A stretch of 64,000 bases of DNA from Acrocarpospora macrocephala (GTDB lineage: Bacteria; Actinomycetota; Actinomycetes; Streptosporangiales; Streptosporangiaceae), in contig NZ_BLAE01000005.1 of NCBI RefSeq assembly GCF_009687865.1, positions 202,299 through 266,298 of the forward strand, in the 5' to 3' direction. Below, one piece after another: positions 10,175 to 49,988 of the stretch. The translations under genes and the position numbers were made by a program. The notes beneath the pieces were generated by a model, which did not search any database, was not told where the DNA came from, and saw nothing but the letters and a program-made list of their open reading frames with translations. The number at the start of each line of letters is the position of its first letter. Within the stretch, counting starts at the first letter, position 1.

Positions 10175-10177
10175 GGC

Positions 10178-26153: not shown

Positions 26154-26168
26154 CCGGGCCGACCAGGG

Positions 26169-26561
26169 TCAGGCGCTTTTCCGGTCGTACTCCTCGCGTG
26201 CCCTGTCCACCTCGGCCATGTGCTCCTCGGCCCACTCCTTGAGGTGGCGAATCGTGTCCAGGAGGGACAGGCCCAATGGCGTGAGCTCGTAGTCGACGCG
26301 GACGGGTACCGATGGAGTCACCGTGCGGGTCAGCAGGCCGTCTCGCTCGAGGCCCCGGACGGTCTGGGTCAGCATCTTCTGGCTCACCCCGGCGATCCGC
26401 GCGGAGAGCTCGGAATAGCGCATCCGGCCCTGCAGGCCCAGTGCCACGATCACTAGGCTCGCCCACTTGTTGCCGATCGTGTCGAGCAGCCGCCGGCTGG
26501 GGCAGAAGGCGTCGAACACATCGAACCGCATCGTCGGCCCGTCAGCAGTGGTCACGTCCAT
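26169..26561 (-). CDS. HxlR-family transcriptional regulator
   Basis: A 130-residue HxlR winged-helix regulator. CPSRRLLDTIGNKWASLVI contains the redox-relevant N-terminal Cys of the family; RYSELSARIAGVSQKMLTQT is the recognition region and YELTPLGLSLLDTI the wing and dimer helix. It is divergent from the quinone oxidoreductase at 26662, the classic arrangement in which HxlR represses a detoxifying reductase. The intergenic region has two inverted repeats. Confidence 0.88.
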   Translation of the reverse strand: MDVTTADGPTMRFDVFDAFCPSRRLLDTIGNKWASLVIVALGLQGRMRYSELSARIAGVSQKMLTQTVRGLERDGLLTRTVTPSVPVRVDYELTPLGLSLLDTIRHLKEWAEEHMAEVDRAREEYDRKSA

Positions 26562-26584
26562 GGCTCACCTCTGGGTGCCTACAC

Positions 26585-26618
26585 CACTTCAAAGTGTCTA
26601 CTTCCTAAAAGAGAGTAG
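26585..26618. promoter_or_regulatory. HxlR operator candidates in divergent promoter
   Basis: Two inverted repeats lie side by side between the HxlR and oxidoreductase genes: CACTT-CA-AAGTG (26585-26596) and CTACT-N11-AGTAG (26598-26618). This AT-richer segment stands out from its surroundings and could overlap both promoters. Confidence 0.55.
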
Positions 26619-26661
26619 GTCACCGATGGTGGTGCAGTCCACCTATCGCAAGGAGATCCAC

Positions 26662-27558: not shown

Positions 27559-27600
27559 GGGCGGCCCTGATGTGTCCCTGACCCGACTCGACGCGCGAAC

Positions 27601-27626
27601 GCCCGCCCGGGCAAACCCGGGCGGGC
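27601..27626. terminator. Bidirectional terminator, 11-bp stem
   Basis: GCCCGCCCGGG-CAAA-CCCGGGCGGGC is a perfect hairpin between the convergent oxidoreductase (stop 27558) and GNAT-like gene (stop 27651). Confidence 0.85.
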
Positions 27627-27650
27627 ACCAAAGCCCTGGAACAGATGGCC

Positions 27651-28397
27651 TTACCCTGAATTCGAAGTGGAAGGATCATCCTCGTTGCTCGCGCGTAGCT
27701 TTTCGTAGAGGCGCGATATGTAGCGCATGTAGTCTTCGTCGATGCCGACGGTGCGCACATAACCATCGAAGTAGATCGACTCGACGAGCCGGAGGTAACT
27801 CAGTTTTGTCATGGCGGCCAGCGCATCGGGGTTCGACGCGATGTACAGGTCCGCGGGCAGTTCTGTTGTCCCCTCCATCGCCTTATAGTCCATGTCCGGC
27901 TGGACATAGTCGATGGGCGCTTTCCGAGTGGCCAGGCCGCGCATCCGGGCGTATTCAGTGAACAGTCGTGCCTTCGCGCGTGATCGGGCTGACTCGGCGA
28001 CGGGCGGTGCGATCTCGAACATCAGCATGAACGGGGATTTCAGGGTCTTCGCGTGGTCGTGCCAGGCGGTTTCCAGCATCTCCCAGCTGACGCTTCCGGT
28101 AGACGGCAGCGCACCCAGGTAGTCGATGAGAGCGTAGTTGCGATCGACGCTGGTGAGCAGATTCAGGAAGCCGACCACACGGTCGCCCTGCACCGCGAGA
28201 TAGAGGGAGTAATCGATCGGCTGTGGGTCGCCTTCGCGCGAGAAGTCTGCAAGCCGCCGGTCGGCGGCATGGCCGAGGATAATCGTCGGCGACATTTGCT
28301 GATTCGCTGGTATGAGGCGACGGAAGAGCTCACAGAATTGGTCCGCATACTGTCGGGTGGCGCGATCTCCGTACCGCACGACGCGCTGCTCGTTCAT
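27651..28397 (-). CDS. GNAT-like protein of unknown function
   Basis: A 248-residue protein. SLYLAVQGDRVVGFLNLLT resembles the beta4 strand and acetyl-CoA-contact region of GNAT acyltransferases, and the length is compatible with an N-acyltransferase. The clear R/QxxGxG/A loop is missing. Its codon use and G+C are visibly lower than its neighbours (AGT, TTC-AAC and ATA codons, AT-rich 3' end), a sign of transfer. The ATG lies 1 bp after the stop of a tiny upstream ORF (28399), so translation may be coupled. No function is assigned. Confidence 0.55.
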   Translation of the reverse strand: MNEQRVVRYGDRATRQYADQFCELFRRLIPANQQMSPTIILGHAADRRLADFSREGDPQPIDYSLYLAVQGDRVVGFLNLLTSVDRNYALIDYLGALPSTGSVSWEMLETAWHDHAKTLKSPFMLMFEIAPPVAESARSRAKARLFTEYARMRGLATRKAPIDYVQPDMDYKAMEGTTELPADLYIASNPDALAAMTKLSYLRLVESIYFDGYVRTVGIDEDYMRYISRLYEKLRASNEDDPSTSNSG

Positions 28398-28398
28398 C

Positions 28399-28578
28399 TC
28401 AGGGCAGGCCGATCAGCTGGGTCGCGCCCAGGAAGAACGCCTCGTGGTCGTCGCCCGGCATCGCGGTACGGGCGGACAGCCGGCGCGCCAGGCGCTCGAC
28501 GGCCGCGTTGTGGTCGAAGTTCTTGGGCAGCCGGTTCTTGACGCGGACATACAGAACGAGGGCGTACAGCAGCCACAC
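28399..28578 (-). CDS. Small ORF coupled to the GNAT-like gene
   Basis: An unrecognised 59-residue ORF beginning at GTG. It has a hydrophobic N-terminus (VWLLYALVLYVRVKNRLPKN) and a C-terminus HEAFFLGATQLIGLP. The stop touches the GNAT-like start. A strong SD (GGAGG) precedes an ATG at 28622 in another frame, which is closed after 12 codons by a TGA just before this GTG. The ORF may therefore be a frameshifted 70-residue gene. Confidence 0.4.
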   Translation of the reverse strand: MWLLYALVLYVRVKNRLPKNFDHNAAVERLARRLSARTAMPGDDHEAFFLGATQLIGLP

Positions 28579-28647
28579 GTGCTCAGCCTCGCCGAGATCC
28601 GGCCTTGAACTTTTTCCTCATGTCGGTTCCTCCCTTCGTTCGCCGGG

Positions 28648-28776
28648 TCAGGCACCGGCGAAGCGGGCGGCGCCCAGGAAGAAGGCGGCCTGAGTTCGGG
28701 CAGCTTCACGATGTCGCTGCCATGACCTTGGGTCAAGCGCTGCTGGCCGGCCTGGCCTAGCCGCCCAGGTCGCCAC
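28648..28776 (-). CDS. Small ORF with a related C-terminus
   Basis: A 42-residue ORF from GTG, with AGGA 6 nt upstream. It ends TQAAFFLGAARFAGA and so shares AFFLGA and spacing to the stop with the ORF at 28399. Tandem short ORFs with a common tail could be small structural proteins, precursor peptides or debris of a duplicated gene. The 28398-28834 stretch holds only these two ORFs and the operator at 28806. Confidence 0.35.
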   Translation of the reverse strand: MATWAARPGRPAALDPRSWQRHREAARTQAAFFLGAARFAGA

Positions 28777-28805
28777 GAAATTTCCTGCTATTATTCCATG
28801 ACAAT

Positions 28806-28821
28806 CTATTATCGATAATAG
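28806..28821. promoter_or_regulatory. Perfect 16-bp palindrome, GntR operator candidate 1
   Basis: CTATTATCGATAATAG is a perfect palindrome 13 bp upstream of the SDR start, next to its SD. The ATCGAT core recurs in the promoter regions at 33488 and 40643. Confidence 0.65.
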
Positions 28822-28834
28822 GGGAGGGAATGTG

Positions 28835-29533
28835 ATGGATCGTAAGGTGGCGATCGTTACGGCGGCGAGCGCCGGGATCGGGAAGGCCATCGCGCAGGAG
28901 CTGGCGGCTGACCACGAGCTGGTGGTCATGTCGCGGTCGGATGCGATCTCGGACGTGGCACGCGAGCTTGGCGCCTGTGCCGTGCGCGGCGACGTCCGCT
29001 CGGGGGACGACCTTGACCGGCTCGTGACGACGGCGCTCGACCGCTACGGACGCGTCGATGCCGTGGCCATCAACACGGGACACCCGCCCAAGGGCAAGTT
29101 GCTCGATCTCACGGAAGACGATTGGCGCGCCGGCTACGACCTGGTGCTGAGCTCGGTGATGTCGCTGGTGAAGCTCGTCACTCCGGTCTTCGTCCGCCAG
29201 GGGACGGGGAGCGTGGTCGCGGTGGCCTCGTACGCGGCGCGCACCCCAGAGCCGACGATGCCGGTCTCATCCGTCTTCCGGTCGGCGCTGCAAGCGTGGA
29301 TCAAGCTCTACGCGACCGAGTACGGGCCTGCGGGGGTGCGCGCGAACACCATTCTGCCGGGGTACATCGCCACCCACCCGCAGGACCCGGCTCGCGTGGC
29401 GACGATCCCGGCCGGGCGTTACGGGCATCCGGCGGAGATCGGGAAGCTGGCGGCCTTCCTGCTGTCGGACGGCGCCGGATTCGTGTCCGGACAGGCGATC
29501 CTCGCCGACGGCGGGATGGTCACCGCAATCTGA
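28835..29533 (+). CDS. Divergent SDR with non-canonical catalytic residues
   Basis: A 232-residue SDR with TAASAGIG as cofactor loop. The active-site segment is ASYAARTPEPTMPVSSVFRSALQAW: where YxxxK is expected it reads SxxxR, and NNAG is replaced by INTG. This pattern exists in a known SDR subgroup with conserved VSSVFR and NTILPG, so it may still be an enzyme with altered chemistry. GGAGG 7 nt upstream supports ATG 28835 over the overlapping GTG. Operator 1 precedes it and a hairpin terminator follows. Confidence 0.8.
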   Translation: MDRKVAIVTAASAGIGKAIAQELAADHELVVMSRSDAISDVARELGACAVRGDVRSGDDLDRLVTTALDRYGRVDAVAINTGHPPKGKLLDLTEDDWRAGYDLVLSSVMSLVKLVTPVFVRQGTGSVVAVASYAARTPEPTMPVSSVFRSALQAWIKLYATEYGPAGVRANTILPGYIATHPQDPARVATIPAGRYGHPAEIGKLAAFLLSDGAGFVSGQAILADGGMVTAI

Positions 29534-29537
29534 ACGC

Positions 29538-29572
29538 CGGTGCCCGGCCCGATTTCCTCGGGCCGGGCACCG
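29538..29572. terminator. Bidirectional terminator, 14-bp stem
   Basis: GGTGCCCGGCCCG and its complement flank a 7-nt loop (ATTTCCT), with one extra C-G pair outside. It is placed between the convergent SDR (stop 29533) and M24 genes (stop 29579). Confidence 0.88.
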
Positions 29573-29578
29573 CCCCCC

Positions 29579-30613
29579 TCACGGCTCAAGGCTGAGACTG
29601 TGCGAGGTCAGCAGGCTGGCCCCGCCCTCCTCGATCAGCATCAGGTGCTCGACCCTGACCCCGTAGCCGTCAAGGTACGCACCAGGCTCCAAGGCGAGGA
29701 CCGCGCCCGCTTGAAGCACGACCTTCGACGCCGGGTCGAACAGCGGAAAGTCCTGTTGCTTGTAGCCGATGCCGTGGCCGGTCATATGGGGATATTCATA
29801 TCCTCCCTCGGCCATCACCCCCCGTACGGCGCGATCGACATCACCCACGACGGCTCCTGGCCGCAGCATCGAGATGCCGTGATCCAGGGCCCGCATCGCG
29901 TGATCGTGCAGACGCCGCACCTCGCGAGGCACAGGTCCGAGGACGGTCGTCGAGCACGAGTCGCCCCAGATCCCGTCCAGCAGCGGCGCGAAGTCGAAGA
30001 TGACCGTCTCGCCGGGCCGCACGCGGCGTCCGGTGGGAGGAAGGCCGACCTGCTCGCAACGATCGCCGAACATCAGATCGACGATCGCGGCGGCGGGGGC
30101 CGTATGAGCGGTCAGCTCCGCGTTGACGGCGTCGAACAGCTCCAGCTCGGAGATCCCGGACCGGATGTGGCGGCGGAGCGCGTCCTGCCCCCGGCTCGCG
30201 TACCGGGCGGCGGCGCGGATCCGCTCCAGGTCAGCCGGCCCATGGGTGAGCCGGCGCCCCGCCAGAAAGGCGGCGACGTCGACGAGGGGGTGCCCGCGCA
30301 GCACGGGTTCCAGGGCCGCGGGCAGCGCCGTGGTTTCGACGGCGATCACGCGGCCGGCGCGAAGACCGGCCTCGTCGAGTAGCTCCTGAGCGAGAGCCCG
30401 GGTGCCCGGACGGATCAGCCGCACGGTCTCGTCGTCGGCGAGGGCGACCGTGCCGGCCTCCACGTCCCGACCGCCGATCCAGCGCACGCTGGCGTGATCG
30501 GTGGCGATGAGGACGTGCGCGCCCACCTCCCGGAGATGTTCGCGCACGTCTTCATGCCGCCCGGCGAGCACGCGCTCCCATTCGTCCCGCGGCGCGGGCG
30601 AGCCGGCGATCAT
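29579..30613 (-). CDS. M24-family (Xaa-Pro peptidase/creatinase-fold) hydrolase
   Basis: A 344-residue pita-bread-fold protein. DFAPLLDGIWGDSCSTTVLG supplies two metal Asp (D-x-x-x... and GD), MTGHGIGYKQQDFP the metal His, LEPGAYLDGYGVRVEHLMLI two Glu positions. The metal site looks complete, so it should be a hydrolase (X-Pro dipeptidase-, ectoine hydrolase- or creatinase-like) acting on an amide. The ATG overlaps the SDR stop by 4 bp. It is the last gene of the 33444-29579 operon. Confidence 0.85.
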   Translation of the reverse strand: MIAGSPAPRDEWERVLAGRHEDVREHLREVGAHVLIATDHASVRWIGGRDVEAGTVALADDETVRLIRPGTRALAQELLDEAGLRAGRVIAVETTALPAALEPVLRGHPLVDVAAFLAGRRLTHGPADLERIRAAARYASRGQDALRRHIRSGISELELFDAVNAELTAHTAPAAAIVDLMFGDRCEQVGLPPTGRRVRPGETVIFDFAPLLDGIWGDSCSTTVLGPVPREVRRLHDHAMRALDHGISMLRPGAVVGDVDRAVRGVMAEGGYEYPHMTGHGIGYKQQDFPLFDPASKVVLQAGAVLALEPGAYLDGYGVRVEHLMLIEEGGASLLTSHSLSLEP

Positions 30614-31401
30614 ACGGTCAGGACCCCCGCGGCGAGCACGCCGCCGTCGCAGGTCAGGTTGGCGCCGGTGATGTAGCCGGCCTCGGGTCCGAGCAGCCAC
30701 AGCGCGGCGCGCGCGGGCTCCTCGGGGTCGGCCAGGCGGCCGAAGGGCACCTCCTCGTTGATCTTCACCCGGGTGCTCGCCAGGTCCTCCGGCGCGACGT
30801 TGGCCCACATCAGCTCGGTCTCGGTCGCGCCCGGGGTCACCGCGTTGACGCGGATGCCCGCGCCCGCGTACTCGACGGAGAGCGCCCGGACGAGGGAGCT
30901 GACGCCCCCCTTGGAGGCCGCGTACGCCGCCGCGCCACCCACGCGCGGGGCGACGAAGCTCCACGGCGACGAGATGCAGACGATCGCGCCGGGGTGGCCA
31001 GACTCGCGGAAGGATCGGATGGCCGCACGGCAGGTCAGGAACGTGCCGGTGAGGTTGGTCTCGACCACCTTGTGCCAGGTCTCCATCGACAGCTCGTGGC
31101 TGGGGGCCCCGGTGTCGATGCCGGCACTGCAGATCGCACCGGTGACCGGGCCGAGCGCGGCCGACGCGCGGGCGAAGGCCGCCTCGACGTCGCCTTCGAC
31201 GCGCACGTCGCACTCGGCGAAGAGCAGGTCGCCCGCCTCCTCGGCGGCCGACCACTCGCCGGTCGGCGCGCTCGGCGGGGCGAGCCCGAGTGCCGCCACT
31301 CGCGCGCCGCCGCGCAGCGCGAGAATGGCGGCGGCCTGACCGATTCCGCTACTGGCACCGGTGATGACGACGACGCTCCGCCGGTTGGAATCGGCTGGCA
31401 T
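30610..31401 (-). CDS. SDR family oxidoreductase
   Basis: A 263-residue SDR with TGASSGIG, an unusual ICSAGID in place of NNAG, and catalytic ISSPWSFVAPRVGGAAAYAASK (Ser ... Tyr-x-x-x-Lys, quoted around the loop). The insert GEWSAAEEAG after the second strand is atypical. AAAGGG 6 nt upstream supports ATG 31401. It probably oxidises a hydroxyl group in the sugar-acid-like pathway. Confidence 0.83.
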   Translation of the reverse strand: MPADSNRRSVVVITGASSGIGQAAAILALRGGARVAALGLAPPSAPTGEWSAAEEAGDLLFAECDVRVEGDVEAAFARASAALGPVTGAICSAGIDTGAPSHELSMETWHKVVETNLTGTFLTCRAAIRSFRESGHPGAIVCISSPWSFVAPRVGGAAAYAASKGGVSSLVRALSVEYAGAGIRVNAVTPGATETELMWANVAPEDLASTRVKINEEVPFGRLADPEEPARAALWLLGPEAGYITGANLTCDGGVLAAGVLTV

Positions 31402-31412
31402 GCTCGGCCCTT

Positions 31413-32537
31413 TCACAGATCGTCGACGCTCTTGCAGTCGTATTCGGCCAGGGTGGCCCGCTTCATGGCGTCCCAGTCGATCTCCAGGCCGATGCCGTGG
31501 CCGTCGGGGGCGCGCACCTCGCCGTTCTCGTCGCAGCGGATCGGGTTCACGATCCCGTACTCGTAGGCGTCGTACGGGATGGGAAGCTCGAAGTAGCTGC
31601 TGACGGGCGACGCCAGGCCCACATGGATGGCGGCCCCCTGGATCAGGGAGTAGCCCCAGCTCTGCTGCTCGGCGGGCAGGCCGAGCGCCTCGGCGATGGC
31701 CACCATCTTGCGGGCCTGGGTGATGCCCCCGCTCATCGAGGCGTCGAAGCGCACCGCGTCCCAGGGGAAGCGCGAGACGTGGTGGTAGATCTCCTGCAGG
31801 TCCATCAGCCACAGGCCGTGCGGGACGATCGGGATCTTGATGCGCTCGCGCAGCCGGAAGTAGCTGGCCAGGTCGTAGTCGCGGAAGGGCGCCTCGAACC
31901 ACCGGAAGCCCATCTCCTCCAGGGCCCGCCCGACCTTGACCGCGCCGTTGAAGTCGTAGCGGTTCTCCGCGTCGTGCATGAAGGTGACGGTGTCGCCGAA
32001 TTTCTTGTGCACCGTCGTGAGCATTTCAAGATCTTTTTCGGGAACGTTCCAGGCGTGGAATTTGATCGCCGTGAAGCCGTCGGCGATCATCTCCTCGACG
32101 TGGTCGAGGTAGTCGGCCGTGGTCTCCAGCTCCGCGGTCGAGGCATACGCGGGGATCGAGTCCCGCGAGCCGCCGAGCATCTTGTACAGCGGGAGGCGGG
32201 CCTTCTTGGCGGCCAGGTCCCACAGGGCGATGTCGATGGCCGCGATGGCGCCGGGCGCCGTCGGCGTGATGTACGTGTGCAGGTCGCGCCAGCGCGCCTC
32301 GATGTTGGACGGGTCCTTGCCGATGATGTACTGGCCGAGCGTGCGGATCGACTCGAAGGTGGCGAAGTCGTACTCCCCCGAGCCGTAGCTCTGCGTGCAG
32401 CCGACGCCCACGCCACCGTCGGAGTCGAAGACCTGGACGATCGTCATCAGCATGAACTGCGGGGGCATGCTCGCCCATGTCGTACGCGGGATGTCGGGGC
32501 CGACCCCGATCACGTGGACCCGCTCGATGGTCGCCAT
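31413..32537 (-). CDS. Mandelate racemase/muconate lactonizing (enolase superfamily) enzyme 1
   Basis: A 374-residue enolase-superfamily protein. Lys159-x-His161 (AIKFHAW) ends the second barrel strand, Asp189 (MHDAENRYD) and the Glu of WFEAPFRD are metal ligands, and RFDASMSGGI follows. It abstracts an alpha-proton from a carboxylate, giving dehydration or racemisation. K-x-H instead of K-x-K makes the subgroup uncertain. It starts 1 bp after the DHDPS-family gene's stop, a coupling that suggests dehydratase then aldolase. Confidence 0.87.
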   Translation of the reverse strand: MATIERVHVIGVGPDIPRTTWASMPPQFMLMTIVQVFDSDGGVGVGCTQSYGSGEYDFATFESIRTLGQYIIGKDPSNIEARWRDLHTYITPTAPGAIAAIDIALWDLAAKKARLPLYKMLGGSRDSIPAYASTAELETTADYLDHVEEMIADGFTAIKFHAWNVPEKDLEMLTTVHKKFGDTVTFMHDAENRYDFNGAVKVGRALEEMGFRWFEAPFRDYDLASYFRLRERIKIPIVPHGLWLMDLQEIYHHVSRFPWDAVRFDASMSGGITQARKMVAIAEALGLPAEQQSWGYSLIQGAAIHVGLASPVSSYFELPIPYDAYEYGIVNPIRCDENGEVRAPDGHGIGLEIDWDAMKRATLAEYDCKSVDDL

Positions 32538-32538
32538 G

Positions 32539-33444
32539 TCAGCCCTTGACCGCTACGCCGGAGGACCGCAGCACGTCGGCGAGGCGCGCCTTGAAGTCCG
32601 CGGGGGCGGGCAGCAGCGGGAGCCGGGGGTTGCCGACCGGCAGGCCCACGACCTCGCAGCCGGCCTTGACCGCGCTCTGGTAGCCCAGCTCCCCCACGGT
32701 CGTCATGATCGGCCACAGCCGCTTCCACACCGCCTGGGCCGCCGGGAGGTCCTGCTTCTTGATGATCGCGTCGTACAGCTCGACCGCGAGGCCGGGGAAG
32801 AAATTGGCGGCGCCCCAGACCGAGGCCCGCGCGCCCGAGGTCAGCCCGAAGAAGGTGAGCTTGTCCTCGCCGTTGAACACCTTGAGCTTGTCGGGCATCT
32901 CCTGGAACAGCTCGCCCAGCTGTACGGCGTTGGCGCTACTGTCCTTGGTGAACTTGATGTTCTCGATGGCGGCGAGCTCTTCGAACTGCTCGCGGGTCAG
33001 CGGCAGGCCGGTGGCCGCGGGCATGTGGTAGTACATGATCGGAATGTTGATGGCGTCGGAGAGTGCCCGGAAGTGCGCCAGCACCTCCGGCCAGGTCACC
33101 GGCTCGTAGTACGGCGGGATGACCATCACGGCCGCGGCGCCGTTCCGCTCGGCGTGCCGGCTCAGGTCGATCGTCTCCTTGGTGGTCAGGGCACCGGTAT
33201 GCGGAACAACCGGCACCGCGCCGTCGACGGCCGCGGAGACGACTTCGGTGACGTGCTTGCGCTCATCGGTGGTCATGTTCATGAACTCACCGGTGCTGCC
33301 GCAGGGGATCACACCGCCGACGCCGGCGTCGAGCTGGAACTCGACAACCTGCCTGAGCACGGCATCGTCGACGGATTCTCCATCCGCGGTGAAGGGGGTC
33401 ACGAGCGCGGGGAAGATGCCTTCGAAGATCGGATCGCTGGACAC
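32539..33444 (-). CDS. DHDPS-family aldolase/dehydratase
   Basis: A 301-residue DapA/NanA-family TIM barrel. GSTGE (49-53) binds the alpha-keto carboxylate, Tyr138/139 (MYYHMPAATG) and Schiff-base Lys167 (KFTKDSS) are in place. With two enolase-superfamily enzymes and no lysine genes nearby, it is more likely a keto-deoxy sugar-acid aldolase or dehydratase than DapA. First gene of the operon; divergent from the GntR gene, with operator 2 between them. Confidence 0.88.
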   Translation of the reverse strand: MSSDPIFEGIFPALVTPFTADGESVDDAVLRQVVEFQLDAGVGGVIPCGSTGEFMNMTTDERKHVTEVVSAAVDGAVPVVPHTGALTTKETIDLSRHAERNGAAAVMVIPPYYEPVTWPEVLAHFRALSDAINIPIMYYHMPAATGLPLTREQFEELAAIENIKFTKDSSANAVQLGELFQEMPDKLKVFNGEDKLTFFGLTSGARASVWGAANFFPGLAVELYDAIIKKQDLPAAQAVWKRLWPIMTTVGELGYQSAVKAGCEVVGLPVGNPRLPLLPAPADFKARLADVLRSSGVAVKG

Positions 33445-33487
33445 GAGGGCTCCAGGTGTTAGAAGGGCACGTAGTCGATGATAGGAT

Positions 33488-33506
33488 TATAGACAATCGA
33501 TGATTA
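33488..33506. promoter_or_regulatory. GntR operator candidate 2
   Basis: TAGACAATCGATGATTA, centred on TCGA at 33497-33500, lies between the divergent DHDPS-family (33444) and GntR (33574) genes. It resembles operators 1 and 3 and would serve both autoregulation and operon control. Confidence 0.6.
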
Positions 33507-33573
33507 GTCAACCCTAGGCGAGCCAGTGATGATCAGCCACCATTGGACGAAGAATCGGAAACGGAAGGTTTAA

Positions 33574-34284
33574 ATGGCGACCGAGATCAGTCGGCCAGCG
33601 GGCGAGGCGTTGCGCCCGGCTTCGCGTAGAGCGCATATCCCGGTCGCCTCGCGGCCGCAGCAGATCGTCGACCTGCTGCGTGAAGAGATCGTCTCCGGGA
33701 CCTTGAAAGCAGGTCAGCAGCTCAAGCAGGACGAGCTTCGCGAAGACTTCGGTGTCAGTCCCGGACCGGTCCGGGAAGCGCTGCGCGTCCTGGAGAACGA
33801 GGGCTTGGTGGAGCACTTCCCGAACAGGGGCGTGTTCGTCGCCGACATCTCCGCGACCGACCTGATCGGGGTGCTGATCCCGGTTCGCCTGGCGATCGAG
33901 ATGTTCGCGGTGACCGCCGCCGCGCCGGCGCTGCGCGCCGGTGGCATCGCCGACCTGGAGAACCTGATCGAGCAGATGCGCGTCGCCGCGGAACGCAACG
34001 ACCGCTTGACGATCAACGAGCTGGACGTGCGCTTCCACGAGACCATCGTCCGTGCGTCCGCGTCGAGCCACGCGTTGCAGTTGTGGCGTAGTGTCCAGCC
34101 GCGCATAAGGGCACAGATCTACGCCCTCGCGCCGCGCCATCACGCGGCCGATGACATCGTCGCCGAACACCAGCAGATCGTCGACGCGATTCGCGACGGC
34201 GACGACGAGAAGCTGAAGGCCGTCATCACCGAGCACGTCCAGATCACTCCCCTGCGCCTGCTCGGGGCAGGGGACGCCGGCTGA
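33574..34284 (+). CDS. GntR-family regulator, FadR/FCD subgroup
   Basis: A 236-residue GntR regulator. N-terminal wHTH: IVSGTLKAGQQLKQDELRED, then FGVSPGPVREALRVLENEGLV. The C-terminal FCD helical domain carries the metal-ligand pattern Asp/His (DVRFHETIV), and further His (EHQQIVDAI). FCD regulators commonly sense sugar acids or other carboxylates, consistent with the enolase-superfamily operons on both sides. The ATG has GGAAGG 5 nt upstream. It ends at the hairpin at 34329. Confidence 0.9.
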   Translation: MATEISRPAGEALRPASRRAHIPVASRPQQIVDLLREEIVSGTLKAGQQLKQDELREDFGVSPGPVREALRVLENEGLVEHFPNRGVFVADISATDLIGVLIPVRLAIEMFAVTAAAPALRAGGIADLENLIEQMRVAAERNDRLTINELDVRFHETIVRASASSHALQLWRSVQPRIRAQIYALAPRHHAADDIVAEHQQIVDAIRDGDDEKLKAVITEHVQITPLRLLGAGDAG

Positions 34285-34328
34285 TTCCCACGCCCGCTTA
34301 AGCAAAGCCGGTCGGCCCGCCGCGCGAC

Positions 34329-34360
34329 CGCCCGGCCCACGGCAGGCCGCGGGCCGGGCG
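34329..34360. terminator. Hairpin terminator, 10-bp stem
   Basis: CGCCCGGCCC and GGGCCGGGCG flank a 12-nt loop, between the convergent GntR (stop 34284) and U32-like (stop 34381) genes. Confidence 0.75.
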
Positions 34361-34380
34361 ACTCCCAGGACGGCGCGGTG

Positions 34381-35307
34381 TCATGCCGGTACGGGCACGC
34401 CGTCTCGCTTGCCGTCGACCGCTGAGGGCGCCGCGTCGGGCCTGCCGCGCCACAGGTGTTCGAGCCCGGCCCGAGCCCGGGCGACCCGCGCTTTCGCCGA
34501 GGATGCGACCACGGCGGCCAGGTGTTCACCGGCGGGGTAGAAGGCCGGGGCGTTACGCAGGCCGAACTTCAGGTGGACGGGGGCGCCGATCCGGACGATC
34601 TCGGGGAGATCGTGGTAGCGCATGAAACCACCGAGGCCGTCCTGACCCTCGATGTACATGTCGAGCGCACCCCGCGTGAGCTGCCGGTACGCGGCCAGAT
34701 CGCCGAGGGTGGTGTCACTGGCGATGTTCAGCGAATGCGCCCCCGCCTGCTCCAGCGCGCGGGCGCCGAGCGGGTTGGCGATGCCCATCAGCGCCGACGC
34801 CTTGACGATCAGGTCGCTCGGCAGGTCGCCGGCGGCCTGCGCCTGACCGATGAGGGCGATGAGTCCCTCGTCGGCGACCAGGAGGCTGCGCAGCCCGGAA
34901 TCGACGGCGCGCTCAACGTCTTCCCAGGCGGCGCGCAGCGCGGCGACACCGATATGGCGGGCGCCGAAAATGCCGCCGTCCGCGGTCAGCGCCGACGCGG
35001 CGTTGCCGTCCCACGCGGCGCGCGGGCCGATGAACAGGCAGACCTCGACGTTGTGGTCGGCGCCGATGGCCACGTACTCGCGCAGCGTGTCGTCGGTGAG
35101 AACGGTGATGCCGCTGCCTTGCGAGATCCGGTGCAGCGGCACGCCCTGCCGCTCGCACTCCTGGATGACGATGCGGAACGCCTCGGTGCTTTCCACGCTC
35201 GGGATCTCGATTCGGTACTCACCGCCGTCGTCGAAACGGATCGGGGAGTCGGGCAGACGCCTGCTCGCGAGAGCGAGCTCGTCGAGCACGGAGGGGTAGG
35301 AGAACAT
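34381..35307 (-). CDS. Peptidase U32-like TIM-barrel protein, function unknown
   Basis: A 308-residue protein. RISQGSGITVLTDDTLREYV, EVCLFIGPRAAWDGNAAS and EQAGAHSLNIASDTT suggest a TIM barrel related to U32-type proteins; I do not recognise a catalytic motif. It lies 21 bp after the ABC ATPase gene and closes the operon running from 40629. A helper role in the imported compound's degradation is a guess from context only. Confidence 0.5.
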   Translation of the reverse strand: MFSYPSVLDELALASRRLPDSPIRFDDGGEYRIEIPSVESTEAFRIVIQECERQGVPLHRISQGSGITVLTDDTLREYVAIGADHNVEVCLFIGPRAAWDGNAASALTADGGIFGARHIGVAALRAAWEDVERAVDSGLRSLLVADEGLIALIGQAQAAGDLPSDLIVKASALMGIANPLGARALEQAGAHSLNIASDTTLGDLAAYRQLTRGALDMYIEGQDGLGGFMRYHDLPEIVRIGAPVHLKFGLRNAPAFYPAGEHLAAVVASSAKARVARARAGLEHLWRGRPDAAPSAVDGKRDGVPVPA

Positions 35308-35328
35308 CGGAGTCCCTTTCAGTGCGAG

Positions 35329-36093
35329 CTAGAGGACCTTGCCGAGGAAGTCGCGGACGCGCGCGTTCGCGGCGCCCCTGAAGACGTCCTCGACCGTGCC
35401 GTCCTCGACGATCCTGCCGGCGTCCATGAAGACGGCGCGGGCCGCGACCTCACGCGCGAATCCGATCTCGTGCGTGACGACGATCATCGTCATGCCCAGG
35501 TCGCTGAGCCTGCGCATCGTCTCCAGGACCTCGCTGACGAGTTCGGGATCGAGCGCGGAGGTCGGCTCGTCGAACAGCATCACCTTGGGCCGCATCGCCA
35601 GGGCGCGGGCGATCGCGACGCGCTGCTGCTGGCCGCCCGACAGTTGCTCGGGCATCGCGTGCGCCTTGTGGGCCATGCCCACGGTCTCCAGCAGTTCCTC
35701 GGCGCGGGACCTGGCCTGCTTGCGGTCCAGGCCGAGCACGCCGACCGGCGCCTCCATGACGTTCTGCAGCACGCTCATGTGGGTGAACAGGTTGAAGGAC
35801 TGGAACACCATGCCCACCTCGCGGCGCTGGCGGGCGATCTCACGCTTGGGCAGTTCGACCAGGTGATCACCGCGGTGCTCGTATCCCAGCAGTTCGCCGT
35901 CGATGAAGACCGCGCCGGACGTCGGTTTCTCCAGGTGGTTCAGGCAGCGCAGGAAGCTGGTCTTGCCCGCGCCGGACGGGCCCATGACGCAGACGGTCTG
36001 GCCACGCTGCACCTGCAGGGTGACGCCGTCGAGGACCAGATCGTCGCCGTATCTCTTGCTGAGATTGACGGCTTCGAGTACGACGTCGTTCAT
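35329..36093 (-). CDS. Polar amino acid-type ABC transporter ATPase (GlnQ-like)
   Basis: A 254-residue ATPase: [13 protein letters not shown] (Walker A, about 39), [15 protein letters not shown] (Q-loop), [15 protein letters not shown] (signature), [14 protein letters not shown] (Walker B) and VVTHEIGFA (H-loop). All catalytic elements are intact. The ATG overlaps the permease stop (ATGA). It powers the importer with 36090 and 37100. Confidence 0.93.
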
Positions 36094-37049
36094 GCCGGCT
36101 TCCCTCCCGCGACCACGCGCGCGGCGTTGCCGAGCTTGCGCGACCGGCCGCGTAGGCGACGTTCCAGCAAGGACTGCACCGCCGACAGGACGGTGACCAG
36201 CACGATGTACCACAAGGTCACGACCACCAGGAGGGGGACGACCTCGTAGGTCAGCTGGTAGATGGACTGCGCGGTGTACATCAGGTCGAACACCGCGATG
36301 AACGCGACAAGCGAGGTTCCCTTCAGCATGTTGATCGTGTCGTTGCCCAGCGGCGGGATCGCGATCCTGAGCGCCTGCGGCAGCACCACCCGCCGGTAGA
36401 TCCTGGCCCTGGTCATCCCCAGCGCGGTGCCGGCCTCCCATTGCCCCGTGGACACCGCGGTGATGGACGAGCGCAGGATCTCGGCCGAGTACGCCGCCTC
36501 ATTGAGCGCGAAGGCGAGGACCGCCGCCATGAAGGGCGAGATCAGCGTGTGGGTCTCGCCGGAGATGAGGGTGGGGCCGCCCGGGATGCCGATGGTCAGG
36601 GTGGGATAGAACAGCGACAGGTTGAAGGTGATGATGAGCAGCACCAGGACGGGTGTCGAGCGGAAGAACCAGACGAACAGCAGCGCCGCCTGACGCAGGG
36701 CCCAATTGCCCGACAATCGCATCAGCGCGACGATGACCGCCAGCACGAGGCCCACCGCCATCGAGGCCGCCGTCAAGCCGATCGTCACCCAGACCCCGTT
36801 GAGGATCCGGATGTCGAGCATGTAGCGGCCGACGATGTCCCACTGCAACGCCTCGTTGGAGACGACGCTCCACACGGCCAGGGCGAGGACCGCGAGCACC
36901 GCGACGGCGATGATCTCGCGCCGGTGGCCGCCACGTTGCCTGATCGGCAACCCGGCGAGTTCAACCATGCGCCCGTGCCTGGCTGGTTCGCTGGTCGGAC
37001 TGGGCACCGGGTCGTCCTCGGCCAAGGCGCTGGGATCACTCGGGCGCAT
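36090..37049 (-). CDS. Polar amino acid-type ABC transporter permease
   Basis: A 319-residue HisM/GlnP-type permease with a cytoplasmic N-terminus and about five membrane segments. [22 protein letters not shown] is the EAA loop contacting the ATPase; [11 protein letters not shown] is family-typical. Only one permease gene is present, so it probably forms a homodimer. The nearly parallel permease at 44661 shares layout. Confidence 0.92.
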
Positions 37050-37099
37050 GGTTGAACCTTCCTTATGGGGGATCGATGGCAGCGTCAGCGGATCAGGGG

Positions 37100-38005
37100 T
37101 TATTCGGCCGACGGAGGGGTGGGGTTGACCTGCGCAGAGTCCGCAATATTCTCACTTAGACCGTGTTTGGTGAGAATAGCCTCATATGTCCGGTCTTTCA
37201 TCAATGCGTCGATCCCCTGCTGGACCACGGTGATGAGCTTGGAACCCTTGGGGAAGGAGTAACCGGCGTACACCGACAGGATTGACGGGCCGGTCAGTTT
37301 CCACTCCTTGCCAAGCTGCTGCTTCTCCTGGCTCAGGAAGTAGCTCAACGTGGAGGTGGGGGCGACCGCGGCCTCCGCCCGCCCGCTGGCCACCGTCAGG
37401 TACCCCTCCGGCAGGGAGGGGAGCTGGACCAGCTTGATCGCCTGCTTCCCGGCGGCCGTACAGGCGTCGGACTTGCCCTGCAGGTACTCGGTCGCCTGAT
37501 CGCCGGTCTGGGAGGCGATCGTCCGGCCGCACAGGTCGTCGATCGTGGAGCCGAAGTCCGCCGTGGACTTCAGGGTGATGAAGTTGTACCCGTCGTTGAA
37601 CTGCGACAGCTGGTCGTAGATCTTCATCCGCTCGGTGGTGATGTTGGTCTGCGTGATGAAGTCGTACTTCTTCTGGTTGAGCCCGAGCAGCATGTTCTCG
37701 AAGGACACCTGCTCGATCTTGATGGGGATGCCCAGTTGCTTGGACAGCGCCGCGAGAAGTTCGGGGTCCTCACCCTGCGCGGTGCCGTCGGTGCCCTTGA
37801 AGGACAGGGGCGGCGCGTTGACCTGCACGGCGACCGTGATGCCGTCCCGGAACTCTTCGGGCACGCTCTGGTAGAGGGGAGCGGTGGTGTCTCCTCCGGA
37901 GGCCGCGGAGGTTTCGGAGGCGGTGCCGGACGCTCCGCAGCCGGTGACGGCCAAGGCCAGCAGCGCGGCCGACGCCGCGAGGGAGAAGTAGGGCTTTTGG
38001 TTCAT
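37100..38005 (-). CDS. Amino acid-type ABC transporter substrate-binding lipoprotein
   Basis: A 301-residue SBP_bac_3 protein with lipobox VTGC (about 19-22). GITVAVQVNAPPLSFKGTD and LAALSKQLGIPIKIEQVSFENMLLGL follow the polar amino acid binder pattern. GGAG 5 nt before the ATG fixes the start and rejects longer frames. Its ligand may be a carboxylate- or amine-bearing sugar acid derivative, given the amine oxidase upstream. Confidence 0.9.
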   Translation of the reverse strand: MNQKPYFSLAASAALLALAVTGCGASGTASETSAASGGDTTAPLYQSVPEEFRDGITVAVQVNAPPLSFKGTDGTAQGEDPELLAALSKQLGIPIKIEQVSFENMLLGLNQKKYDFITQTNITTERMKIYDQLSQFNDGYNFITLKSTADFGSTIDDLCGRTIASQTGDQATEYLQGKSDACTAAGKQAIKLVQLPSLPEGYLTVASGRAEAAVAPTSTLSYFLSQEKQQLGKEWKLTGPSILSVYAGYSFPKGSKLITVVQQGIDALMKDRTYEAILTKHGLSENIADSAQVNPTPPSAE

Positions 38006-38093
38006 GTGCTCTCCATATGAGGGGTGGCCCCCGAATGTGGTTGGTCGCGCGACGCGGAGGTCACGCAGCCGGCCTGGACATCGGCCGGCTCGC

Positions 38094-39491
38094 CTACTGG
38101 CCTCCTCTCCCGCTGGCGACCTCGGCGGATCGCAGATTTTCCGAGACCCGCAGGACCGCCCGGAGGGAGGACCGGGCGGCCTGCTCCATTCCGCTGAGCG
38201 GGTCGAAATAGTCGCCCGCGAGCGCGATGCGGCCGTGGTCGAAGCCACGCTCGAGGGCCGGCTGGAACGCGGCGCGGCCTGGCGCGGCGTAGATCGTCCC
38301 CAGGGGCCAGCGCTGCACCACCGTCTCGGTGATCTTGCCGCGGAGCTGCGGCACCAGTTCGAGCACCGAGCGCAGGAAGGTGCGCTCGATCACCTCGTCG
38401 CTCTCGGCCATCAGCTCGGCGGCGCGCGGGCCGCCGCGGTAGCACATCAGGCTGCCACCGCTCTTGCGCTCCCCTTCACGGGTCACCTGGGCGTGGTTGA
38501 ACAGGAAGTCGATCTCATGGCCGGGTGTCGTCACCGCGTAGACGTCGTCGATCGGCAGCGGCCCGGACTCTGAGGTGAAGATCGCCATGCTGAGGAACGC
38601 TCCATGGGTGACGTGGCGCAGCGCCTCGTCCAGGGGCGGCGGGACGTCGTCGATGATGTCCCGCGCGATGTGGGCGGGCGTCGCGACGATGACCGACTGG
38701 GCGGTAACGGTCTCGTCGAGGAACCGCACCTCGACGTGATCGCCCTGGTCCGTGACCCGCTCGACGGGGGCGCCGACCCGGATGTGGTCGCCGAGCCGGG
38801 CGTGTAGCGCGTGGACGACCTCCTCCGTCCCCCCGATCACGACCCGCGCGGTGGCGCCCGGGGCGTCCTTGGGCCCCATCACGTGCGCGCAGCACAGCAG
38901 CGCGGTGCCGCTGGAGACCTCGTAGGAGTCGGCGGCGGCGCGCCGGGCGATGCAGTCGAAGATCGATTCGACCCGGCCGCGGAGGGGGCCGAGGTATTCC
39001 TCGAACGTCTGGTCGTTGCGGAACTCGACGAGCCGGTGGCGCTGCTTCACCTCGTCCGCGGGGGTCTGCGGCTGATGATCCTCGATCCGGTTGACCTGCC
39101 TGACGCCGAGCGCGAGTTTGAGGCCCGCCTTGATCATGGAGGCGCGCTCGCGCAGGGTGAGCGGGAGGACGAAGGGCAGCATTTCCACCCGAGCAGGGTC
39201 GACGATCCTCGCACCCAACCCCATGCCCGTGACCGATCCCTTGACCTGGCGGACATCCAGGCCGAGCTCGATCGCCAGCTGGCCCATGTGGGTGTCGGTG
39301 TGCGGAAACACATGAGCTCCGACGTTGACCCAGTAGTCGCCGCGGCGTACGGACTTGATGCGCCCGCCGACTCGCTCGTCCGCCTCGAGGATCAAGATCT
39401 TGCGATCGCGCAGCCGCCAGGCCGAGAAGAGGCCGGCGATGCCGCCGCCCACGATGACGACGTCGTAGTCGGTCACAGGGGAGTTGCTCAT
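38094..39491 (-). CDS. FAD-dependent amine oxidase-like protein
   Basis: A 465-residue flavoprotein of the amine oxidase/phytoene desaturase-like fold: VVIVGGGIAGLFSAWRL (FAD ADP-binding, about 11-27), LEADERVGGRIKSV, and a C-terminal IALAGDYFDPLSGMEQAARS that contacts FAD. It may oxidise an amine or desaturate a substrate. The ATG at 39491 gives the family N-terminus just before the FAD motif; the longer frame overlaps the neighbouring gene. It lies 16 bp after the enolase-superfamily gene. Confidence 0.85.
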   Translation of the reverse strand: MSNSPVTDYDVVIVGGGIAGLFSAWRLRDRKILILEADERVGGRIKSVRRGDYWVNVGAHVFPHTDTHMGQLAIELGLDVRQVKGSVTGMGLGARIVDPARVEMLPFVLPLTLRERASMIKAGLKLALGVRQVNRIEDHQPQTPADEVKQRHRLVEFRNDQTFEEYLGPLRGRVESIFDCIARRAAADSYEVSSGTALLCCAHVMGPKDAPGATARVVIGGTEEVVHALHARLGDHIRVGAPVERVTDQGDHVEVRFLDETVTAQSVIVATPAHIARDIIDDVPPPLDEALRHVTHGAFLSMAIFTSESGPLPIDDVYAVTTPGHEIDFLFNHAQVTREGERKSGGSLMCYRGGPRAAELMAESDEVIERTFLRSVLELVPQLRGKITETVVQRWPLGTIYAAPGRAAFQPALERGFDHGRIALAGDYFDPLSGMEQAARSSLRAVLRVSENLRSAEVASGRGGQ

Positions 39492-39507
39492 GGTGTAGCG
39501 CCCGCTT

Positions 39508-40629
39508 TCAGATGGTGACGAGGTACTTCTCGATCGTGGCGTCATCCAGCTCCACGCCGAGTCCCGGCTCGGCCGGCACGTAGGCCGTGCCGCCCTCGAT
39601 GCGCGGGGGGTTGCGCACGAGAGACTTGCTCAGGTCGGTTTCCTCGACGCAGTACTCGAGCATGAGCGCGTTGGGGATCGACGCCAGCAGGTGCAGCGAC
39701 GCGGCGGTGTTGATGTCGGTGGTGAAGTTGTGGTTGCACACCGGCAGCCCGCGGTCGGCGGCGAGCCGGGCGATCCGCACCGCCTCGGTCAGCCCCGTCC
39801 GGGTGACGTCGATCTGGACGACGTCCACCCGGCCCTGGTCCATCAGGCGCAGGTAACCCTCGGCGGTGCACTCCTGCTCCCCCGCCGCGATCCGCATGTC
39901 CGTCGCGTCGCTCAGCAACGCGTAGCCGCGCAGATCTCCTGGCATCAACGGCTCCTCAAGCCAGAACGGCTGGTACTGCTCGAAACGGCGGGCCCGGCTC
40001 AGCGCGGTCTTGGCGTCCCAGGCCAGGCCGGCGTCGACCATGATGTCGGCCGTGCCGGCGCCCTTCCTGATCGCCGCGACCAGCGCCTCGTCCAGGTCAG
40101 GGTCGGGGCCCATGGGTTCCCAGCCGAACTTCATCGCGGTGTATCCGGCATCGGCGGCGGCGGCCGCCCGTTCCGCGTTCTCCTTCGGCGTGAAGGAGAA
40201 CATGTGGCTGGCGTAGACCCGGTGCTCGGTGGAATAGCCGCCGCCGAGCAATTCGTAGACCGGCCGCTGAAGGATCTTGCCCTTCAGGTCCCACAGCGCG
40301 AGATCCACTCCGGCCATGGCGTGGATGACCGCTCCGCCCCGGCCATAGTAAATGGTGCCGCGGAGCATCTTGTCCCACAGCCTGCTGATCTCCAGCGGGT
40401 TCTCCCCCACCAGCAGGTGCCGCAAGCCGCTCACCATCTCGTGGGAGTACGGCGCCTCAATGATCGACTTGACCACCAGCGGGCTCGAATCGACCTCGCC
40501 GATTCCGGTGATACCCGCGTTGGTGGAAATGCGGACGAGAAGGGTGTCCTGCGAGCTGTCGGTCCGCTCCCGGATCGACGGCATCTTCAGGTAATGAGCC
40601 TCGACATCGATGATCTCAAAATCTGACAT
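39508..40629 (-). CDS. Mandelate racemase/muconate lactonizing (enolase superfamily) enzyme 2
   Basis: A 373-residue enolase-superfamily protein only distantly similar to the one at 31413. Lys167-x-Gly169 (AMKFGWEPMG) replaces the K-x-K motif; metal ligands are in VDAGLAWD, WLEEPL and AAGEQE; CNHNF is near the end of the barrel. One catalytic base appears to be missing or supplied elsewhere. It is the first gene of the operon that also carries amine oxidase, ABC importer and U32-like genes, and lies under operator 3. Confidence 0.87.
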   Translation of the reverse strand: MSDFEIIDVEAHYLKMPSIRERTDSSQDTLLVRISTNAGITGIGEVDSSPLVVKSIIEAPYSHEMVSGLRHLLVGENPLEISRLWDKMLRGTIYYGRGGAVIHAMAGVDLALWDLKGKILQRPVYELLGGGYSTEHRVYASHMFSFTPKENAERAAAAADAGYTAMKFGWEPMGPDPDLDEALVAAIRKGAGTADIMVDAGLAWDAKTALSRARRFEQYQPFWLEEPLMPGDLRGYALLSDATDMRIAAGEQECTAEGYLRLMDQGRVDVVQIDVTRTGLTEAVRIARLAADRGLPVCNHNFTTDINTAASLHLLASIPNALMLEYCVEETDLSKSLVRNPPRIEGGTAYVPAEPGLGVELDDATIEKYLVTI

Positions 40630-40642
40630 GGATAGTAGTCTG

Positions 40643-40658
40643 TAGATAATCGATAGAT
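40643..40658. promoter_or_regulatory. GntR operator candidate 3
   Basis: TAGATAATCGATAGAT, centred on TCGA at 40650-40653, lies in the 62-bp gap between the divergent enolase-superfamily (40629) and SDR (40692) genes. It matches the left arm of candidate 2 closely (TAGA-AATCGAT). Confidence 0.6.
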
Positions 40659-40691
40659 GGTGTCAAGAGATGCGATTGAAGGGCTACACAG

Positions 40692-41459
40692 ATGAAACAT
40701 TCCGCCCGAACAGCCCTCGTCACCGGCGCAAACGGCGGAGTCGGCGCCGCGATCGCCCGCGCGCTCGCCGCGTCAGGACATCGGGTGGCCGTGCACTACG
40801 GGCACTCGGAGCGGGCCGCCCATCAGCTCGCCGGCGAGCTCGCCGGCGACGGCCACGCGGTCGTGGCGGGCGACCTCCGGGAGCAGGGCGCGGCCACGAA
40901 GATCGTCGATGACGCGGTTTCCCGTCTTGGGCGCATCGACGTACTGGTGAACAACGCGGGGGTGACGAGACGCACGCTCATCACCGAGCCGAGCCTCGCG
41001 CAGTGGCGAGCGGACTGGGAGGACGTCTTCGCGGTGAACCTGTTCGCGGCCGCCGACCTGGCCTGGGAGGTCGCCCGGCACCTGCGCGAGCGACCGGAGA
41101 CCGCCGCGGGCGGGCGGATCGTCAACGTCGGCTCCCGCGGGGCGTTCCGCGGGCAGGCGGACGCCATCGCCTACAGCGCGAGCAAGGCCGCGCTGCACGC
41201 GATGACGCACTCGCTCGCGATCGCGCTGGGCCCGTACGGCATAGCGGTCACCGCCGTCGCACCCGGCCTGGTGAAAACTCCGATGACAGCGTCGCTCATC
41301 GAGGACATGTCCGAGGAGGCGGTGAAAGCGGAGAGCCCGCTGGCCCGGCTGGCTGTCCCCGAAGACGTGGCCGCGGCGGTCGCCTGGCTCGCTTCTCCCG
41401 AGGCCGAGTGGGTCAGCGGGGCGGTCGTCGACGTCAACGGCGCCTCGTACACGCACTGA
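40692..41459 (+). CDS. SDR family oxidoreductase
   Basis: A 255-residue SDR: TGANGGVG, VNNAGV and VGSRGAFRGQADAIAYSASK (Ser, Tyr, Lys), ending VVDVNGASYTH. The second strand VHYGHSERAA suggests an NADPH preference. AAGGG precedes the ATG by about 10 nt. It is monocistronic and divergent from the enolase operon under a shared operator. Confidence 0.85.
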   Translation: MKHSARTALVTGANGGVGAAIARALAASGHRVAVHYGHSERAAHQLAGELAGDGHAVVAGDLREQGAATKIVDDAVSRLGRIDVLVNNAGVTRRTLITEPSLAQWRADWEDVFAVNLFAAADLAWEVARHLRERPETAAGGRIVNVGSRGAFRGQADAIAYSASKAALHAMTHSLAIALGPYGIAVTAVAPGLVKTPMTASLIEDMSEEAVKAESPLARLAVPEDVAAAVAWLASPEAEWVSGAVVDVNGASYTH

Positions 41460-41473
41460 CGCCGCGCCGCCGG

Positions 41474-49940: not shown

Positions 49941-49988
49941 GGCAATCTTCTTCCAGTAAAACCAGTCGGCAATGTAGGGAATATGACC

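Follow-up and report, generated by a model that had tools for sequence, protein, structure and literature searches.

In this work, we analyzed a gene cluster at positions 28832–41459 of a 64,000-nt stretch of DNA from Acrocarpospora macrocephala (the window, itself 70.9% G+C, from a genome of 12.1 Mb), in which two enolase-superfamily enzymes, here named enoA and enoB, are encoded together with an importer of the ATP-binding cassette (ABC) type, an aldolase/lyase, a flavoprotein, short-chain dehydrogenases (SDRs) and a GntR/FCD regulator. The genes that an initial annotation of this DNA had read as an M24 hydrolase, an amine oxidase, an aldolase and an amino-acid-type importer were recovered by Pfam at their positions; its further description of the M24 protein as an amide hydrolase holds as to the M24 family and is otherwise a family-level guess. 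Conservation was judged by comparison with another genome from this genus (G127), using the ratio of nonsynonymous to synonymous substitution rates (dN/dS). The genes are the following:

28832–29533, plus strand: SDR1, short-chain dehydrogenase, 233 aa; Pfam adh_short_C2 1.2e-44; kept in G127, dN/dS 0.18
29579–30613, minus strand: M24 metallopeptidase-fold hydrolase, 344 aa; Pfam Peptidase_M24 2.3e-37
30610–31401, minus strand: SDR2, short-chain dehydrogenase, 263 aa; Pfam SDR
31413–32537, minus strand: enoB, enolase-superfamily enzyme; MR_MLE_N and MR_MLE_C; dN/dS 0.024
32539–33444, minus strand: DHDPS-family class I aldolase/lyase, 301 aa; Pfam DHDPS 1.6e-61
33574–34284, plus strand: GntR/FCD transcription regulator, 236 aa; Pfam FCD 8.4e-25 and GntR 2.4e-19; divergent from the DHDPS gene
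34381–35307, minus strand: orphan gene, 308 aa; family annotated elsewhere as U32-family peptidase
35329–36093, minus strand: ABC transporter ATPase, amino-acid type; Pfam ABC_tran 1.4e-36
36090–37049, minus strand: ABC transporter permease; Pfam BPD_transp_1 1.5e-24
37100–38005, minus strand: solute-binding protein; Pfam SBP_bac_3 3.9e-22
38094–39491, minus strand: flavin adenine dinucleotide (FAD) amine-oxidase-like flavoprotein, 465 aa; Pfam Amino_oxidase 1.6e-38
39508–40629, minus strand: enoA, enolase-superfamily enzyme; MR_MLE_N and MR_MLE_C; dN/dS 0.080
40692–41459, plus strand: SDR3, short-chain dehydrogenase, doubtful member; Pfam adh_short_C2 6.4e-51; mostly deleted in G127

The minus-strand genes form two runs, one from enoA through the FAD enzyme, solute-binding protein, permease and ATPase to the orphan gene (40629 down to 34381) and the other from the DHDPS gene through enoB and SDR2 to the M24 gene (33444 down to 29579), with the GntR gene on the plus strand between them and SDR1 at the left end. 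With the starts chosen, spacing within the runs goes from a 4-bp overlap up to 88 bp: 1 bp separates the DHDPS gene from enoB, and SDR2 lies 11 bp from enoB and overlaps the M24 gene by 4 bp. An SDR gene also adjoins enoB in two loci of other genomes (L022 and L103). Counterparts of 12 of the 13 cluster genes are present in G127 with dN/dS of 0.02–0.23, which argues that the gene set is not a product of chance. Within the compared stretch 26000–29600, the two genomes become similar from 28781 onward, immediately before the first operator-like site, so that the left border of the cluster is real. Rightward the similarity reaches at least 43869, except for a 653-base gap (40819–41471) that covers most of SDR3, and because SDR3 is mostly deleted in G127, both its place in the cluster and the right border are weakly supported.

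Three places in the window carry near-palindromic ATCGAT sites flanked by A/T-rich sequence, the only such sites there, all at the outward promoters of the cluster and all identical in G127. They are listed here without strand:

28806–28821: operator-like perfect 16-bp palindrome CTATTATCGATAATAG, upstream of SDR1
33493–33504: operator-like site ACAATCGATGAT, between the DHDPS and GntR genes
40646–40657: operator-like site ATAATCGATAGA, between enoA and SDR3

The window holds 10 ATCGAT hexamers, and only these three have flanks with at least 6 of 10 A/T; in 100 first-order Markov resamplings such A/T-flanked hexamers occurred with a mean of 0.19 and a maximum of 3. The pattern AYHATCGATDRW was itself derived from these three sites before its occurrences were counted, a caveat that applies to all its statistics. 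In the window it matches only in the three outward promoter regions; counted by strand there are 5 matches, where 0.13 would be expected and where each of 100 shuffles gave fewer than 5. The whole genome has 18 places with the pattern, of which 3 are in this cluster (Poisson P 6e-7 for the clustering, the pattern being post hoc); read backwards, the pattern has no match in the genome. The surroundings of four of the 15 other genomic places were fetched, and two of them, on host contigs C66 and C84 (L184 and L185), lie 7 and 3 kb from mandelate racemase-like (MR) genes. With one shared operator-like site at each outward promoter, the arrangement suggests that the genes may be controlled as one regulon. 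The cluster is probably one co-regulated gene set for the import and breakdown of a small acid, which probably bears nitrogen.

The host genome has 18 MR_MLE_C matches in a profile search. The second-strand motifs that the initial annotation had assigned to the two enzymes, K-x-H and K-x-G, are both present (K159-F-H161 in enoB and K167-F-G169 in enoA). Mandelate racemase carries K-x-K on this strand, which enoA lacks; enoA does have the complete Asp/Glu/Glu metal site and the His-Asp dyad expected of the mandelate racemase subgroup. From 140 MR open reading frames, filtering by length and for duplicates left 135 superfamily proteins, which we aligned. In each of the 12 enoA rows of this alignment, K-x-G occurs alongside an unbroken set of D, E, E, D and H, so that K-x-G alone is no sign of a broken enzyme and, contrary to what had been proposed, is not odd in itself. 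The enoA fork of the tree takes in 14 rows, the 12 plus two wider relatives that are paired with enoB and in which the motif is K-x-E (L162) and K-x-C (L180); its support is 92, below the value of 95 that the tool stars. Against NCBIfam models (scores are given hereafter as score of cut-off), enoA reaches 183.5 of 750 and, with galactonate dehydratase as the nearest, 168 of 311. Its nearest relative in the PDB is 3SJN (E 2e-79).

For enoB, the departures from the standard active site had been understated, as they go beyond the second strand. It retains D189, E215 and D265, but Leu242 replaces the third metal ligand and Gln292 replaces the dyad His, so that enoB lacks both the three acidic metal ligands and the dyad His of the mandelate racemase subgroup. 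Twenty-seven of the 135 rows form an enoB clade with a Shimodaira–Hasegawa-like approximate likelihood ratio (SH-aLRT) support of 100 in a quick tree search. Within it, (i) the first Lys of the second strand is found in 27/27 rows and K-x-H in 25/27, a motif that is not exclusive to the clade (14 outside rows have it), (ii) metal ligand 3 is Asn in 22 rows, Leu in 3 (window, G127 and L103) and Asp in 2, against Glu in 91/135 of all aligned proteins, (iii) the dyad position is Gln in 24 rows and Met, Val and Arg in one each, with His in none of the 27, and (iv) D265 is kept in 20/27, the window included. The dN/dS of enoB is the lowest of the twelve cluster genes with a counterpart, which argues that the gene is not decaying. 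The predicted structure has a predicted local distance difference test score (pLDDT) of 88.7 and Z-scores of 40–52 to the 50 solved entries listed; the best match is 4JHM (Z 51.9, 1.5 Å over 370 residues), and the next among the matches listed has 43.4. Scores against sugar-acid dehydratase models were again below the cut-offs (133.8 of 650; 89.8 of 311 for galactonate dehydratase). All NCBIfam equivalog cut-offs were missed by both enzymes, and the titles of 4JHM and 3SJN give no function, in line with the earlier view that their reactions are not to be copied from known subgroups. The roles of Lys, His and Asp in both enzymes are those that we take them to have from the alignment and general knowledge of the superfamily. 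Judging from the aligned residues, the enoB clade is a rare enzyme group in which part of the usual active site has been lost.

Its rarity was apparent in genome searches at a threshold of E 1e-60, in which enoB was found in 3/297 genomes of the host family and 2/396 of the host phylum (the host counted in both), in 5/261 genomes of the order of Psychrobacillus (the query genome counted) and in 8/385 of an alphaproteobacterial class sample; none of 369 genomes in the gammaproteobacterial sample had it, though relatives sit on gammaproteobacterial plasmids. We then counted 22 enoB loci, excluding L104 (a same-genus copy) and L020 (outside the clade) and counting L022 as L162. A second enolase, sought by blastp at 1e-15 within stretches of 13.5–25 kb (64 kb for the window), so that misses are possible, was present in 13 of the 22, namely an enoA-clade gene in 9 and a second enoB in 4, and was not found in the other 9. 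As many of the loci were found through enoB, these counts do not give an unbiased rate. The pairing of enoA and enoB is recurrent, which is newly seen here: the paired lineages are that of the window, the kin of Psychrobacillus together with a Psychrobacter plasmid, Pseudomonas MPC6, and two alphaproteobacterial lines (L180 and L162, in the latter of which the two genes are about 8 kb apart). An enoA without adjoining enoB was found in Pantoea, in two Bacillota and in one Latescibacterota genome, where both genes occur far apart. As for the tandem enoB loci, three (L025, L181 and L182) have Gly at D265 in one copy and Asp in the other, and L026 has Gly in both; one L182 copy (9243–10352) is also without D189 and has K-x-R.

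The orphan gene had no Pfam or NCBIfam match at E 0.001 and none among PDB sequences, a profile of 14 proteins of its family found no match in PDB sequences at E 1, and single-sequence structure prediction gave a pLDDT of 35. No Pfam peptidase model matched it at E 0.001, and the name U32 peptidase comes from the annotation of relatives. The family is present in 40/150 genomes of the host family (host included), and 5 of the 16 orphan loci examined have an enoA-like MR gene. A second copy in the host genome (L142, 36% identical) lies with genes for hydantoinase A and B and an ornithine-cyclodeaminase-family protein; the ABC set of that locus (G000:C60:47000-66000) is 57% and 50% identical to that of the cluster. 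By analogy with its neighbours elsewhere, the orphan protein may be an enzyme for a 2-keto-3-deoxy-type acid.

With regard to the other proteins, the nearest PDB sequence to the M24 hydrolase is a proline dipeptidase (1e-25). The ectoine hydrolases DoeA/EutD were rejected as its identity (31.9 of 613 for EutD and 33.1 of 575, far under the cut-offs), as was DddP, which is missing from the 13 NCBIfam models that this protein matches at E 0.001, and an ectoine pathway was discarded with the solute-binding protein also far below the ectoine cut-offs. The nearest PDB entry to the DHDPS protein is 2YXG (1e-39); a lysine or sialic-acid route was set aside on scores of 176.8 of 206.15 for dapA, a narrow miss, and 117.9 of 382 for nanA. 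The solute-binding protein best matches glutamine-type and other amino-acid-binding proteins in the PDB, and the FAD enzyme matches solved amine oxidases only weakly and over part of its length (best 1.4e-14). Outside the cluster, a 248-aa protein without Pfam match at 1e-6 is encoded at its left border (27651–28397, minus strand). To its right, also on the minus strand, 43879–45590 and 45973–50012 hold a second amino-acid-type ABC cassette, the G127 copy of which is 60% and 46% identical to the cluster ATPase and permease, and aminotransferase-like, enoyl-CoA-hydratase-like and binding-protein genes, the names within 45973–50012 being read by eye.

The genes surrounding enoB in other genomes bear on the substrate. 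BCCT and OpuAC, betaine importers by family, were searched with blastp queries that came from enoB loci and were present in 11/22 enoB loci against 2/58 control MR loci (Fisher 3.8e-6; 58 of the 74 control loci were long enough for use), both of these two being enoA loci; with close relatives collapsed, the figures were 6/17 against 2/58 (P 0.0013). A wider set of onium markers, chosen post hoc, was found in 16/22 enoB loci and 3/58 controls. In four genomes of the Psychrobacillus order (L024, L163, L164 and L165) the genes GntR-enoB-enoA-BCCT are contiguous, and Sporosarcina has GntR, enoB, a Carn_acyltransf gene adjoining enoB, and BCCT, with enoA absent genome-wide at 1e-40. BCCT also lies beside enoB or the enoA-enoB pair in Psychrobacter, Pseudomonas MPC6 and Vibrio plasmids. 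Among further loci, L179 has a TauD-family gene directly before enoB (TmpA, 341 of 400; gamma-butyrobetaine dioxygenase, 267.6 of 414.75) and, 3 kb from enoB, a gene above the cut-off for the dimethylsulfoniopropionate (DMSP) demethylase DmdA; L178 has a choline dehydrogenase above its subfamily cut-off, L180 a glycine-betaine-monooxygenase-like gene (131.9 of 670) and a DddP-like gene (427.8 of 600), and L182 OpuAC. Separately from the enoB loci, Clostridiaceae M8S5 has enoA, a galactarate-dehydratase/UxaA-like gene (155.9 of 730.85) and BCCT in a row (L057:9923-14315).

Taken together, these data lead us to favor, with a confidence a little short of even, a reading in which 28832–41459 is one GntR-controlled catabolic regulon for a zwitterionic amino- or onium-substituted hydroxy acid, a substrate class inferred for the most part from relatives belonging to other phyla. 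An amine- or onium-bearing hydroxy acid is favored by the importer, by the amine-oxidase-like enzyme and by relatives of the enolases, and sugar-acid-like chain chemistry by the DHDPS and orphan genes. Of the compounds named initially, an amino- or amido-substituted sugar acid or an opine-like one, the amine-bearing and sugar-acid-like elements thereby gain ground, while no evidence was gained for an opine. In the enolase superfamily, the proton alpha to a carboxylate is abstracted, followed by racemisation, elimination or cycloisomerisation (PMC6946804), and some members take betaines as substrates (PMC5144071). On this basis, the ABC importer and its binding protein would bring in the small zwitterionic acid; enoA, with Gly in place of the second-strand base, would abstract the alpha-proton, leading to elimination of the beta-hydroxyl (dehydration) or to epimerisation; enoB would act on the same or the next intermediate with K159 and H161 as the acid-base pair; the FAD oxidase would take off the amine; the DHDPS and orphan proteins would handle the resulting 2-keto-3-deoxy-type acid; and the SDRs and the M24 protein would prepare or finish side groups. 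The order of these reactions is likewise inferred.

Several observations weigh against this reading. First, the importer of the window is of the amino-acid type and not BCCT or OpuAC, and onium markers are found in 0/3 loci of its own sub-clade (window, L103 and L106, L103 having a class III aminotransferase and an amino-acid permease), so that by analogy the substrate of the window can only be proposed. In addition, L025, L176 and L177 are without any marker of the wider set. When L026, L181 and L182 are also collapsed, BCCT or OpuAC remains in 4/15 enoB loci and P rises to 0.014; moreover, queries taken from enoB loci may favor matches there, and the other markers are post hoc. Furthermore, two contexts lead elsewhere. 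In Pantoea rwandensis (L160), an enoA 58% identical to that of the window lies with GntR, an allantoinase/hydantoinase-like gene, an FMN (flavin mononucleotide)-dependent dehydrogenase and an amino-acid ABC set, which points to another amide or amine compound; its amidohydrolase scores 340.7 of 650 for the hydantoin-5-propionate amidohydrolase ErtD and 356.2 of 357.85 for the allantoinase AllB. The context of the orphan family, for its part, points to plain sugar acids.

This last context underlies an alternative that we consider unlikely, namely a plain sugar-acid pathway with enoA as an aldonate dehydratase, the DHDPS protein as a 2-keto-3-deoxy-aldonate aldolase and the orphan protein as a related lyase, the amine oxidase and importer being incidental or serving salvage. 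In L133, the orphan gene accompanies an IlvD/Edd dehydratase (closest equivalog L-arabinonate dehydratase, 792.6 of 882, below cut-off), a GntP permease, an aldehyde dehydrogenase without close equivalog and an MR gene that comes close to the cut-off for galactonate dehydratase (289 of 311). In Thermomicrobium, a family member has a sugar ABC system and an MR gene as neighbours, and sugar-acid dehydratase models give both enolases their highest NCBIfam scores. Those scores nonetheless stay below the cut-offs (given above), the FAD oxidase and binding protein share one tight run with enoA and the orphan gene, and betaine importers are present in half of the enoB loci.

More improbable is a strictly carnitine-like pathway, in which enoA and enoB would act together on carnitine or an analogous beta-hydroxy quaternary ammonium acid, by dehydration, rehydration or racemisation, in all loci, the window included. 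The contiguous four-gene sets of the Psychrobacillus order, the Sporosarcina locus with its carnitine acyltransferase gene and the position of enoB right after the TmpA/gamma-butyrobetaine-dioxygenase-like gene in L179 are what it would predict, but it sits poorly with the marker-free sub-clade of the window and with Leu at metal ligand 3 in the window, G127 and L103 versus Asn in 22/27; besides, the nearest solved relative of the Psychrobacillus BCCT is the DMSP transporter DddT (392.7 bits) and not CaiT (239.8). The notion that enoB is non-catalytic and serves enoA as a structural or regulatory partner or in a heteromer we regard as slightly more improbable still, as the loss of the third metal ligand and dyad His, the frequent second enolase (13/22 loci) and at least one copy without D265 in each of the four tandem-enoB loci have to be set against the retention of Lys, D189, E215 and D265 in the window, the 9/22 loci in which no second enolase was found in the examined stretch and the strongest constraint in the cluster. 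Opine catabolism was discarded, as no supporting gene appeared in the Pfam and NCBIfam scans, which included no dedicated search.

Returning to the zwitterionic hydroxy acid as the favored substrate, it is tempting to speculate, doubtful as this wider proposal is, that the enoB clade works without the third metal ligand and the His-Asp dyad, with its Lys-x-His providing the acid-base chemistry, that its substrates are onium or amino hydroxy acids, and that together with enoA it makes up a two-enolase relay or a mixed oligomer that has spread across at least three phyla, the tandem copies without Asp265 being partner-like. Textbooks use the enolase superfamily to illustrate how enzymes diverge while a metal site and a proton-abstraction step are conserved. 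A clade that stays under strong constraint after losing an acidic metal ligand and the dyad His would put to the test how much of this scaffold an enzyme requires, the recurring partner and the betaine-type neighbourhoods of relatives offer concrete candidate substrates, and the GntR-enoB-enoA-BCCT sets of Psychrobacillus and its kin provide a minimal system for study.

Among known systems, enoA shares the fold, Pfam domains, metal site and His-Asp dyad with the sugar-acid dehydratases of the mandelate racemase subgroup (gluconate/galactonate, arabinonate, talarate/galactarate), whereas the window enolases miss their curated cut-offs. It resembles 3SJN (enolase Spea_3858, EFI-500646, from Shewanella pealeana, Mg bound) in its K-F-G, full metal site and His. 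The closest PDB relative of enoB, 4JHM (a putative mandelate racemase/muconate lactonizing enzyme of Pseudovibrio sp., 38% identity), has the same K-x-H, H-G at strand 5 and Q-S in the place of the dyad His, but Asn at metal ligand 3 where the window enzyme has Leu. Genes similar to DoeA/EutD and DddP, below the model cut-offs, occur in enoB loci L177 and L180, and the M24 hydrolase of the window has the family in common with DoeA/EutD and DddP, at the distance from EutD given above. Hydroxyproline-betaine 2-epimerase/proline-betaine racemase belongs to the muconate-lactonizing subgroup. This enzyme is, according to PMC5144071, a precedent for the action of the superfamily on betaines. In the open-licence literature, no title linked mandelate racemase with betaine or the enolase superfamily with carnitine, no paper joined mandelate racemase and BCCT with either the enolase superfamily or carnitine, those on bacterial D-carnitine racemisation and degradation dealt with production and gut carnitine, and hits on 4JHM, 3SJN or Spea_3858 were unrelated by title, from which absence from print is not implied. 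Compared with these systems, what is new here is the probable single regulon, the degenerate but constrained enoB clade, its pairing with enoA and the betaine-type neighbourhoods in other genomes.

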